Positions 27,965 to 63,774 of a stretch of DNA of 64,000 bases are shown piece after piece (position 1 is the first letter of the stretch; the number at the start of each line of letters is the position of its first letter). A program made the position numbers and the translations under genes. The stretch is from NCBI GenBank assembly GCA_947475295.1, contig CANJLF010000001.1:1-64000 (forward strand), in the 5' to 3' direction. The notes beneath the pieces are model-generated. The model was not told the origin of the DNA, ran no database searches, and saw only the letters and a list, made by a program, of their open reading frames with translations. The DNA is from Fidelibacterota bacterium. Its GTDB lineage: Bacteria > Pseudomonadota > Alphaproteobacteria > Rhodospirillales > Rhodospirillaceae.

Positions 27965-28058
27965 TCGCTGTAACCTAGCGCGACTATTCGCAAAGAGCCG
28001 GCGGTCATGACCGCTGAATTCCGCTTCATACCTAAATCAAACGGGGGCCCGCCGCCTA

Positions 28059-28226
28059 CTCGTGCCGCCGATCAGAAGTTCGTGTACGGCGTCCTCGGAC
28101 ACCCGCGTCAGGAACTTCTGATCGAAAGCGGCACTAGATTCAAATATTTGCTAGTGCCCTTTGGTTCCCGAAATGCCTTGCGCGGGCCGCTGCCATGAGT
28201 GACGCATTTCGGGAACGGGGCACTAG
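28059..28226. repeat. Twin-hairpin inverted element, copy B
   Basis: Two hairpins in opposite orientation flank a 13-nt AT-rich linker (ATTCAAATATTTG, 28138-28150). Hairpin 1 (28059-28137): outer stem CTCGTGCCGC with GCGGCACTAG, inner stem CGATCAGAAGTTC with GAACTTCTGATCG, 30-nt loop, and an extra AAA on the right arm. Hairpin 2 (28151-28226): outer stem CTAGTGCCCT with GGGGCACTAG, inner stem GTTCCCGAAATGC with GCATTTCGGGAAC, 27-nt loop, and an extra TTG on the left arm. The element is enclosed by a further perfect 10-bp inverted repeat GGCCCGCCGC / GCGGCGGGCC (28046-28055 and 28226-28235). Its right end overlaps the annotated start of the helicase gene. The same architecture recurs at 63606-63774. 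Confidence 0.88.
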
Positions 28227-30720
28227 CGGCGGGCCAACAGTGACCGCCGTGTTGGGTCCCACCAACACCGGCAAGACCTATCTCGCCATGGATCGGATGA
28301 TGGGTCATGCCTCGGGCATGATCGGCTTTCCCTTGCGCCTGCTCGCGCGCGAGAACTACGACCGCGTCGTGAAAATGCGCGGGTTTGGGGCCGCCGCGCT
28401 GATCACCGGCGAAGAAAAAATCATCCCGCCCAATCCGCGCTATTACATCTGCACCGTCGAAAGCATGCCCTTGGACCGGCGCGTGGCTTTTCTCGCGGTC
28501 GATGAAATCCAACTGGCCGCCGACGCCGATCGCGGCCATGTCTTCACCCAGCGCCTCTTGCATGCGCGCGGCGACGTCGAGACCATGTTTCTCGGCGCCG
28601 AAACCGTCAAACCGCTGATCCGCAAGCTTGTGCCCGGCGTGCACTTTGTCACCCGGCCGCGTTTTTCCAAGCTGCTCTATACCGGCGCCAAGAAACTCAC
28701 ACGATTACCGCGCCGATCCGCTGTGGTGGCGTTCTCGGTGTCCGAGGTCTACGGCATCGCGGAGCTGATCCGCCGTCATCGCGGCGGCGCGGCCGTGGTC
28801 ATGGGCGCCCTATCTCCGCGCACCCGCAACGCCCAGGTGGCGCTCTATCAAAGCGGCGACGTGGATTACATGGTGGCGACCGACGCCATCGGCATGGGCC
28901 TCAATATGGACGTGGACCATGTCGCCTTCGCCTCCATGATGAAGTTCGACGGCCGTGCGCCCCGCGCGCTGGCGGCGTCGGAAGTGGCCCAGATCGCCGG
29001 CCGCGCCGGGCGGCATATGAACGACGGCACTTTTGGCGTCACGGCCGATACGGCTGAGATCGATCCCGACATCATCGTCCGCGTCGAGGCCCACGAATTT
29101 CCGCCGCTGCAAACCCTGTTCTGGCGCAACACCGATCTCAAGTTTACCTCGCTCGAAGCTTTGCTGGGCTCCTTGAAGTATGCGCCGCCGTCGCCGTCGC
29201 TAATTCGGCCGCCGCCGGCCGAGGACCAGCTGGTGCTGGAAGCCATGACCAAAGACGCCGACATCCGAGCGCGTGCCGACGGGCGCACCCGTTTGCGGCT
29301 GCTGTGGGATGTGGCACAGGTGCCGGACTTCCGCAAAGTGAAGCCGGAAATGCACGCGCGCTTCATGGCCCAGGTCTTCCAACACCTCAGCCAAGGCGAC
29401 GAGATGCTGCCGGAAGATTGGGTGGCAGGTCACGTCAAAGCCATCGACCGCACCGACGGCGACATGCACACCATCATGGACCGCATCGCCGCCATCCGCA
29501 CCTGGACCTATATCGCCCATCGCGGCGATTGGATGAGCGATGGCCTGGCTTGGCAGGAACGCACGCGCGAGGTCGAGGACCGCCTGTCCGACGCGCTGCA
29601 CGAGAAGCTCACCAAGCAGTTCGTCGACAGCCGGACCTCTCATCTCGTCAAGCGCCTGCGCGGCAACGATCTCATATCGGCTGATGTGGCCGAGGACGGC
29701 ATTGTCGAAGTCGAAGGCCACCGCCTCGGCCATCTGGAAGGCTTGAGCTTCCAGGCCGACCGCACAGGTCTTCGCACCGCCGACCGCGCGGTGCTGGGCG
29801 CTGCTAACGCCGCACTCCGGCCGGTCATGGCCGCGCGGGTGGATGCCATCGCCGCCGATGCCGATGACGCATTTACCCTCGACGACTCCGCGCGCGTGAT
29901 CTGGCGCGGTGAGCCGGTGGCGTCGCTGATGGCGGGACCTGAACGCCTGAAGCCGCAGATTTTTCTGCCCGTCGACGAGCGCGTCGAAGCGCCCGCCCGC
30001 CTGCGTGTGGAAGCCAGGCTGCGCGCCTGGCTCAACGCCCATATCGCCGACGTATGTGCGCCATTGGCGAAAGCGCGTGAAGCTACGGTCACTGCGCCCG
30101 TACGCGGCATTGTCTTTCAGCTGGCGGAAAACTTGGGCGCCATTCGCCGTAGCGAAGTCGATGCCCATCTCGCGCTGCTGAAAGACGACGAACGCAAAAC
30201 CCTTGCCCGCCTCGGCATCCGCTTTGGCCTGGATCACGTGTTCTTTCCAGCACTCCTGAAGGCCGCGCCCATGCGTCTGCGCGGCTTGCTATGGATTGCA
30301 GCGCACCGCAATATTCCAGCGCCGACGCTGCCGGTTGCAGGCCGCGTATCGGTGCCCTTGGTGAACGACGTTGACGAGACCTTCTATGTGGCCTGTGGAT
30401 TCCGCCCTATCGGCACTACGGCCTATCGTATCGACATGCTCGAGCGCTTCGCCGCCGAAGCCCGGCGCCTTGCTCGGGAAAAGGTTGCTGTGTTTCCACC
30501 CGCCGCACTCTCGCTGCTGGGGATCAACATGGAGGCCGGTGTGCTGGTGTTGAAGGCGCTGGGCTTCAAGGCGAAACTTGTCGAGGCAGGATTGTCCTTC
30601 AGCTTGCGCCGCCGCATACCGCCCCACATCAAGGCCCAGCGTCTGGCCGCGCAAACGCCCACGAACGCAGCGCCTTCGGACTCGCCCTTCGCCAAGCTCA
30701 GGGAGCTGATTCCCTCGTGA
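28195..30720 (+). CDS. SUV3-like DExH RNA helicase
   Basis: The product (841 aa from ATG 28195) has Walker A GPTNTGKT at 21-28, the DExH-like motif VDEIQ at 101-105, and a C-terminal helicase half with ATDAIGMGLNMDVDHV and QIAGRAGR. This matches the Suv3-like helicase widespread in alphaproteobacteria, related to the mitochondrial degradosome helicase, and presumed to unwind RNA. The C-terminal part is alpha-helical and less conserved. It is followed by the S4-domain gene with a 4-bp overlap, then fdxA and carD, a conserved alphaproteobacterial order. The start is uncertain: ATG 28195 lies in the loop of an inverted-repeat element, and GTG codons around 28240-28249 directly before the Walker A region are alternatives. 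Confidence 0.9.
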   Translation: MSDAFRERGTSGGPTVTAVLGPTNTGKTYLAMDRMMGHASGMIGFPLRLLARENYDRVVKMRGFGAAALITGEEKIIPPNPRYYICTVESMPLDRRVAFLAVDEIQLAADADRGHVFTQRLLHARGDVETMFLGAETVKPLIRKLVPGVHFVTRPRFSKLLYTGAKKLTRLPRRSAVVAFSVSEVYGIAELIRRHRGGAAVVMGALSPRTRNAQVALYQSGDVDYMVATDAIGMGLNMDVDHVAFASMMKFDGRAPRALAASEVAQIAGRAGRHMNDGTFGVTADTAEIDPDIIVRVEAHEFPPLQTLFWRNTDLKFTSLEALLGSLKYAPPSPSLIRPPPAEDQLVLEAMTKDADIRARADGRTRLRLLWDVAQVPDFRKVKPEMHARFMAQVFQHLSQGDEMLPEDWVAGHVKAIDRTDGDMHTIMDRIAAIRTWTYIAHRGDWMSDGLAWQERTREVEDRLSDALHEKLTKQFVDSRTSHLVKRLRGNDLISADVAEDGIVEVEGHRLGHLEGLSFQADRTGLRTADRAVLGAANAALRPVMAARVDAIAADADDAFTLDDSARVIWRGEPVASLMAGPERLKPQIFLPVDERVEAPARLRVEARLRAWLNAHIADVCAPLAKAREATVTAPVRGIVFQLAENLGAIRRSEVDAHLALLKDDERKTLARLGIRFGLDHVFFPALLKAAPMRLRGLLWIAAHRNIPAPTLPVAGRVSVPLVNDVDETFYVACGFRPIGTTAYRIDMLERFAAEARRLAREKVAVFPPAALSLLGINMEAGVLVLKALGFKAKLVEAGLSFSLRRRIPPHIKAQRLAAQTPTNAAPSDSPFAKLRELIPS

Positions 30721-63605: not shown

Positions 63606-63774
63606 CTAGCGGAGCGGATTTGACATTTGCATCCGACCGAGGTGCGAAACTGTGAGGCGAATGTCAAATCCTAAGCTCCGCTAGAATCATATATTTCCTA
63701 GTCGTCCTTAGATTCTAACATTCGCGAAGAGTGCAGGGCGAACTGGGATGCGAATGTTAGAGTTGGACCACTAG
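63606..63774. repeat. Twin-hairpin inverted element, copy A
   Basis: Two opposed hairpins flank a 13-nt AT-rich linker (AATCATATATTTC, 63685-63697). Hairpin 1 (63606-63684): outer stem CTAGCGGAGC with GCTCCGCTAG, inner stem GGATTTGACATTTGC with GCGAATGTCAAATCC (one G-T wobble), 26-nt loop, extra TAA on the right arm. Hairpin 2 (63698-63774): outer stem CTAGTCGTCC with GGACCACTAG (one mismatch), inner stem GATTCTAACATTCGC with GCGAATGTTAGAGTT (imperfect at the base), 24-nt loop, extra TTA on the left arm. The halves are inverted relatives of each other. It lies between secA and the amidotransferase gene and ends 3 bp before the latter's ATG. Confidence 0.88.

Follow-up and report, generated by a model that had tools for sequence, protein, structure and literature searches.

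Two twin hairpins in the window, i.e., the whole stretch of 64,000 nucleotides that was analysed, raise the question of what kind of element they represent and what keeps the arms of their stems complementary. Copy 1 starts with a left hairpin of 79 nt (28059 to 28137, + strand), which was matched with 68.2 bits and E 4.3e-15 by R1, a covariance model of the half-element that was built from home-genome copies with short calibration. An AT-rich linker of 13 nt (28138 to 28150, + strand, read from the sequence) leads to the right hairpin of 76 nt (28151 to 28226, - strand; R1 match of 70.7 bits, E 8.7e-16), which is homologous to the left one in inverted orientation. The left hairpin has a 10-bp outer stem running from CTCG to CTAG and an AAA bulge on the linker-facing arm (28125-28127), followed by the inner stem and the loop; the bulge of the right hairpin is TTG (28161-28163). 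Copy 2 consists of a left hairpin of 79 nt (63606 to 63684, + strand; bulge TAA at 63672-63674; R1 match of 76.1 bits), an AT-rich linker of 13 nt (63685 to 63697, + strand, likewise read from the sequence) and a right hairpin of 77 nt (63698 to 63774, - strand; bulge TTA at 63708-63710; R1 match of 70.3 bits). Re-reading of the sequence confirmed what the first-pass annotation had given as coordinates, half lengths (79+13+76 and 79+13+77 nt) and linkers, and likewise the CTAG or CTCG at the ends and the 3-nt bulges that face the linker (AAA/TTG and TAA/TTA). Its description of the stems as 'fully compensated' was slightly too strong: most positions are paired, but 1-3 of the 23 pairs per half are not of the Watson-Crick type. 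Counted as outer stem (of 10) plus inner stem (of 13), there are 9+13 Watson-Crick pairs in either half of copy 1, and 10+12 in the left and 9+11 in the right half of copy 2.

Upon folding as single-stranded DNA, z-scores of -8.2 (copy 1) and -7.7 (copy 2) were obtained, and none of 200 shuffles was equally stable for either copy; by these z-scores and shuffle tests, a chance origin of the hairpins is ruled out. Copy 1 is located between a gene of the S30AE (ribosome hibernation factor) family and a gene for a Suv3-type helicase, the longest reading frame of which starts at 28195 within the right hairpin, with an alternative in-frame GTG at 28240. Copy 2 is positioned after secA.

A search of the home genome with the linker pattern produced 10 matches, 9 of which were true copies by eye. 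When the left halves of these nine copies were aligned with the reverse-complemented right halves, the latter were found to be inverted homologues of the former. The R1 search of the 2.70-Mb home genome, in which 150 of 613 candidates were scored, returned at least 20 twins; all 40 distinct half-places paired up, no solitary half was among the matches, and the inverted pair was the unit in 20 of 20 copies. The copies belong to two main subfamilies, and those of the window fall in different ones. Simple duplication of the two window copies is ruled out by the existence of two subfamilies and 20 loci. The 20 copies are intergenic or lie at a gene edge with the TAG of the element serving as stop, and their neighbours are co-directional, divergent or convergent as judged from crude ORF calls, some of which run over the edge of an element.

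The stems of the home copies covary. Among the 18 halves of nine copies, 96.9% of the cells were paired and 18 of 25 pairs had changes on both sides. Double changes occurred in 77 cells, compared with a mean of 24.8 after shuffling and no more than 12 when the structure was slid, and only 6 cells had a one-sided change, so that almost all changes in the stems are Watson-Crick double changes. These counts extend to 18 halves the structural covariation that had been claimed from two copies.

The status of the repeat as a family hinged on the number of copies in this genome and in relatives, and the covariance-model search that had been suggested for this purpose did find further ones, in the home genome, in the home genus and in Rhizobiales. 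All counts are lower bounds, as 79 candidates per genome were scored in a survey of 61 genomes and 150 each in the home search and in a search of 15 genomes, and one hairpin can contribute a match on each strand to the R1 counts. In the survey, 17 of 61 genomes (home included) were carriers, and presence within the home genus was patchy (13 of 19). An exact search of named genomes with 23 nt of the left half yielded at least 113 stretches from Rhodospirillaceae MAGs and Rhizobiales; among the matches listed, the latter were Bradyrhizobium, Nitrobacter, Afipia, Phyllobacterium and Rhodoplanes. The 15 genomes, which were picked as carriers, had 8 to 150 R1 matches each, Afipia massiliensis having 148 (both strands counted; 150 candidates scored). 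From an even draw of the class, at least 18 of 289 genomes (home included) matched at E <= 1e-6 with 16 candidates scored each. Some genomes of this draw contain compact halves of about 55-66 nt in which the twin plan is kept, and halves across the family measure about 55-81 nt.

No twin match was obtained in phage records, and window copy 1 was not found in plasmid records; three plasmid records hold a type A copy at 70-75% identity. One contig of 16732 bases, the sole one of the IMG/VR viral collection and of putative viral nature, has one twin copy (L449). Two MAGs labelled Candidatus Marinimicrobia also hold the alphaproteobacterial twin repeat (L142, L172). In the genome of L142 (G071), the R1 matches lie at coordinates identical to those in G006 of the home genus, and the label of G071 is therefore probably wrong.

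Empty-site alleles, which the first-pass annotation had named as a check, were searched for by comparing the joined flanks of 12 of the 20 home copies with 19 genomes, and 20 loci for 8 copies were aligned. For 3 of these 8 copies the junctions could be read in 7 empty alleles of sister species; the loci of the remaining 5 were too diverged to read. Every empty allele holds one tetranucleotide, which is of the form NTAN in 5 of 7 cases (CTAG twice, CTAA, GTAG and TTAG) and CTGT or CTGA in the others, and the filled alleles have CTAG or a variant on both flanks. Insertion takes place at one CTAG-like tetranucleotide, which is intergenic for the most part, and the twin is dispersed as a whole; the site appears on both flanks, consistent with duplication of the central TA. 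For a broader view of the ends, a scan by structure only, which used no sequence, gave 183 twin matches, and 133 unique twins after duplicates and those at locus ends were dropped. NTAN was present on both sides in 70 of the 133 twins and not in the other 63. Of the 70 twins, 58 were CTAG/CTAG, 11 of the remaining 12 deviated only at an outermost base, and none had an identical non-CTAG target on both sides. Because of the outermost-base deviations and since no non-CTAG target was repeated, the end patterns appear to fit a duplication of TA within NTAN better than a 4-bp duplication. Duplication of 4-bp YTAR, in the style of IS5 or IS701, was considered and agrees less well with the element ends.

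Copies also occur within or next to other copies. In tandem arrays, one common foot is found, which is CTAG in L119 and CTCG in L130 and L178; L098 and L163 are likewise among the tandem or clustered arrays. In L115 and L190, a complete twin of another subfamily is located at the inner foot of a twin, whereupon the outer linker and right half resume; L146 is nested in the same way but has a damaged outer right half, and L165 seems to derive from recombination. Among 28 loci from relatives (representing fewer twins, as some loci are halves of one), none shared the flanks, and hence an insertion site, with the home copies. Based on the empty sites, the insertion at a CTAG-like site and the nested copies, the element is mobile and non-autonomous. 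It resembles MITEs in being short, gene-free, dispersed in multiple copies and accompanied by empty sites.

Some further observations concern the surroundings of single insertions. The L072 insertion in G020 lies between stretches that match a part of about 100 bases of L050 (home C5), and by this alignment the home genome seems to hold the empty site for it. Flanking inverted repeats of at least 7 bp were present at 5 of 132 copies, compared with a mean of 1.0 and a maximum of 4 in 200 shuffles; this excess is small, and one of the five is adjacent to a different half within an array. Three twins are found between the arms of inverted repeats (window 28040-28240, home C24:12291 and home C1:88740). 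By eye, the repeats at C24:12291 and C1:88740 resemble intrinsic terminators split by the element, and the empty alleles of C1:88740 keep a terminator-like hairpin.

The anatomy of the twin is well maintained among copies. The linker had 12 or 13 nt in 112 of the 133 twins, and the bulge had 3 nt in 226 of their 266 halves, being AAA in 177. In the home genome, a bulge of 2-4 nt, usually AAA, was linker-facing in 39 of 40 halves and absent in one. In the larger set, 261 of 266 halves had it on the linker-facing arm and 5 lacked it; this set was partly chosen for side, since the pairing rule of the structural scan demanded linker-facing or absent bulges. The side of the bulge was therefore judged on the home copies and on 1.2 Mb of the Afipia massiliensis genome that were scanned with no side imposed, where all bulges of the 15 twins were linker-facing. 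In the same 1.2 Mb, there was one solitary and decayed half of the twin family; other solitary matches resembled different palindromes. This genome has many other types of palindromic repeats that occur as solitary long hairpins (L332-L391), e.g., around GGCCGGGACAAGCCC and CCCCGCGAAAGCGGGG. As 100 of the 133 twins came from loci picked by the exact 23-nt left-half match, conservation of left halves is biased; 18 of the 133 were home copies. Right halves played no part in the choice of loci, and those of type A were 91% identical in the stems and 67% in the loops (2520 pairs). The stem sequence is also kept between a Rhodoplanes MAG and the home genome, despite their distance.

A stable, covarying fold would also be expected of a structured RNA, e.g., a 3'-end stabiliser or terminator that is kept by host selection, and the frequent position between co-directional genes would suit such a function. 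Of 186 stem mismatches (133 twins minus 17 without clear orientation), 68 were G.T and 47 A.C. This excess of G.T is mild, and wobble has little or no advantage in the stems; the 77 double-change against 6 one-sided cells also speak against an RNA. In addition, copies occur in divergent settings as far as the crude gene calls tell, and the 28 relative loci include no orthologous insertion. Rfam matched only tRNA in the window, with no twin match at gathering score, and further searches gave four weak matches far below gathering scores, or none in E-value mode; a known RNA family is thus rejected. Given the mild G.T excess and the lack of a common insertion site among the relatives, the structured RNA that the first-pass annotation had listed among its readings is very improbable. 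A protein-bound DNA hairpin or cruciform, the latter on the same list, is possible and fits best as part of the mobility mechanism.

Within the hairpins, the CTAG feet covary as well. At position 3 of CTAG, 46 double changes were counted, all of them compensated. Ends that depart from CTAG in a compensated way turn up here and there in closely similar copies: L094 has CTCG..CGAG and its nearest neighbour, at 95% identity, CTAG..CTAG. These changes of the feet can be due to selection for pairing, to template-switch correction at quasipalindromes, or to both.

Among known repeats, the closest in layout was encountered in Sinorhizobium meliloti. In six 50-kb stretches of pSymB, the words that recur most often come from a repeat of 117-119 bp with two hairpins, which we take to be RIME1 (Rhizobium-specific intergenic mosaic element). 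It is present in 217 plasmid records, which among the matches listed came from Sinorhizobium, Rhizobium and Ensifer, with three single records from other genera. In the excerpts at hand, PMC2573895 names RIMEs and cites the defining 1995 paper. The three pSymB copies have CTAG or TTAG as left and CTAG or CTAA as right ends. Together with nine copies from 40 of the 217 records they formed a set of 12 (Sinorhizobium, Ensifer, Rhizobium), in which 95.3% of the cells were paired and 36 cells had double changes compared to 12.6 in shuffles; 7 of 500 shuffles reached the observed number of pairs with double changes. Bulges are linker-facing in most of the 12, with 3 nt in the right and about 4 nt in the left hairpin; L421 has no right-hairpin bulge, and L426 folds poorly. 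The rhizobial repeat thus resembles the twin in its two large intergenic palindromes, AT-rich linker, CTAG-type ends, linker-facing bulges and covarying stems, but differs in its unrelated sequence, smaller loops and length. In the 300 kb of pSymB that hold the three copies, R1 gave no match at E <= 1 and the structural scan no twin. The twin-hairpin plan would thus be known already from the rhizobial repeat and is not unique, which lowers the novelty of the twin family; no sequence kinship between the two was found in these comparisons. The first-pass annotation had not recognised the element as a described family; this stands with respect to Rfam and to the sequences of named repeats, but not for the architecture.

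ERIC, NEMIS/Correia and RUP elements duplicate TA on insertion, and are single palindromes or simple inverted-repeat MITEs rather than two bulged hairpins. The twin has in common with them that it is short, mostly gene-free, palindromic and intergenic, with TA-type insertion. Target and TA signature are also similar to those of IS711/IS427-type insertion sequences, as IS711 is described, in the part consulted, to target YTAR and duplicate TA (PMC2266754); these are, however, full insertion sequences with a transposase, which the twin does not have. With the REP doublets of REPIN/RAYT systems, which are possibly read in a two-hairpin 'clover' fold, the excerpts of PMC3116915 indicate common features in the inverted palindrome pair as replicative unit, the non-autonomous nature and the tandem clusters. 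The twin differs from REPINs in that its halves measure about 55-81 nt, that CTAG feet border each hairpin at either end, that the target is of the NTAN type and that there is no RAYT linkage. The GTAG or CGTC foot tag of REPINs is not present, the foot of the twin being CTAG or a variant and often compensated, nor is a cognate RAYT gene bordered by copies of the twin. The GTAG/CGTC REP superfamilies (PMC3733652, the main text of which does not contain CTAG) and Br-REP1 and Br-REP2 of Bradyrhizobium (PMC5082802) are, in the portions consulted, similarly abundant intergenic palindromes of related hosts; the Br-REP consensus sequences as printed in PMC5082802 are unlike the twin by eye. For Nitrobacter, Oligotropha and Afipia, Hahn et al. 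mention, in the part consulted and as data not shown, a larger repeat that surrounds Br-REP2 and may be linked to the twin family. No published description of the twin element was found by searching with a description or short stem fragments, such sequences often standing in figures only.

With regard to the mover, the home genome has a single match to a Y1 transposase, REP-associated by NCBIfam, of 72.5 bits (below the cut-off of 80). The Y1/RAYT-like gene (L011, home C11:69945-73271, at 1462-2145) has its own short palindrome, TTCGTACCTGGTAC, on both sides, which is unrelated to the twin hairpin. Y1 was matched in 13 of the 17 carriers among the 61 genomes (not in G018, G020, G024 and G050) and in 6 of 6 element-free genomes of the home genus; of 12 further carriers from other searches, 9 had no Y1 at E <= 1e-3, including Afipia massiliensis. 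Linkage to RAYT was rejected in view of the other palindromes at the home Y1 gene and the many carriers with no Y1. The first-pass proposal of a REPIN-like mobile repeat thus held in that an inverted, covarying pair spreads as one unit, but its RAYT mobilisation, against which the Y1 matches in element-free genomes also speak, and the GTAG/CGTC tag did not hold.

IS630 linkage was rejected as IS630-type DDE_3 was matched in only 6 of 13 carriers, and IS5-type linkage as PF13586 was matched in 8 of 13 and PF01609 in 1 of 7. No match to PF13586 or PF01609 was obtained in G015, G024, G061, G064 and G072, and in the carriers G024, G061, G064 and G072 there was none at E <= 1e-3 to PF01797, PF13358, PF13586 and PF01609. 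Among the families tested, no transposase was linked to the twin; presence of a family would not prove a role, and absence may mean later loss or divergence. Neither the 1.2 Mb of Afipia massiliensis nor six Y1 loci taken from carriers held an autonomous relative with the same ends, and no long-spaced pair of halves around a gene was seen in the 1.2 Mb. A multicopy IS5-type element resides at eight contig ends of the home genome (L435, L438, L440, L441, L443, L445, L446 and L447); it has CTAG at 8 of 8 readable junctions, and its visible end is unlike the twin.

Taken as a whole, the data are probably explained by a mobile and non-autonomous DNA repeat, about 170 bp long, that consists of an inverted pair of imperfect hairpins with an AT-rich linker of 12-13 nt. 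An enzyme supplied in trans would read the two hairpin ends by stem positions, CTAG foot and linker-facing bulge, cut at the CTAG feet and insert the twin at another NTAN site. Mobility would be retained by well-paired copies alone, by which the stems would stay complementary and conserved and the loops would drift. As our first guess, in which we have about even confidence, the mover works by DDE chemistry that duplicates TA, as in IS5/IS427 or IS630; single-strand HUH chemistry is a second and rather doubtful guess. However, a classical DDE end would not require both arms of an internal hairpin to be complementary, and a pure origin by target duplication would not predict compensated changes that reach the CTAG feet and recur in close copies. 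The covariation of the feet thus calls for later correction or selection beside target duplication. Further points that weigh against the mobile-repeat reading are that no linked transposase was found among the families tested, that the 1.2 Mb held no long-spaced pair around a gene, that empty sites were readable for only 3 of 8 copies, and that 63 of the 133 twins do not show NTAN at both ends. An ordinary MITE with unselected complementarity, in which template switching during replication uses one arm as template for the other (quasipalindrome correction), would account for the scattered compensated ends as in L094 and the 46 double changes at CTAG position 3. Correction should erase the bulge, though, which is kept in 261 of 266 halves. 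Since the bulge survives and the stem sequence itself is conserved from the Rhodoplanes MAG to the home genome, correction alone is disfavoured and we consider it unlikely; template switching may act together with the mobile-repeat mechanism.

The inverted hairpin pair as unit, the one-sided bulge and the tandem arrays with a common tetranucleotide would also be in line with a true REPIN that is moved by RAYT or another Y1 (HUH) enzyme via single-stranded hairpins. The CTAG feet would then be the cleavage sites, and an empty CTAG together with an element ending in CTAG would mimic target duplication. The published REPIN doublets with their 'clover' fold (PMC3116915, as far as consulted) and the one Y1 match in the home genome point in the same direction; the other palindromes at that gene, the Y1-free carriers (4 of 17 and 9 of 12), the Y1 matches in all six element-free genomes of the home genus and a CTAG instead of a GTAG/CGTC foot make this improbable. 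That the hairpins are a non-mobile site bound by a chromosome-structuring or recombination protein, which extrudes a cruciform, would agree with the nearly invariant stem positions and bulge, but is contradicted by the patchy presence in the genus, the empty sites, the nested insertions and the strongly varying numbers of R1 matches, and is the least probable of the explanations. Beyond the mobile repeat itself, it is a tentative thought that the twin family, its compact forms and the RIME-like rhizobial repeats constitute an ancient alphaproteobacterial superfamily of twin-hairpin transposable DNA with no insertion-sequence parent. A perhaps chromosomally fixed enzyme would read two bulged hairpins by shape and few bases and paste them into NTAN, so that stems may diverge while their arms change together.

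Short palindromic repeats are common in the intergenic DNA of bacteria, and for many of the alphaproteobacterial ones no mover is known. The twin family offers genomes with many copies (Afipia, Nitrobacter, Bradyrhizobium), empty sites that can be read and a structural code that is clear, and so makes the question of the mover testable. If the rhizobial repeat is its kin, repeats that have been described separately would form one superfamily across the class.
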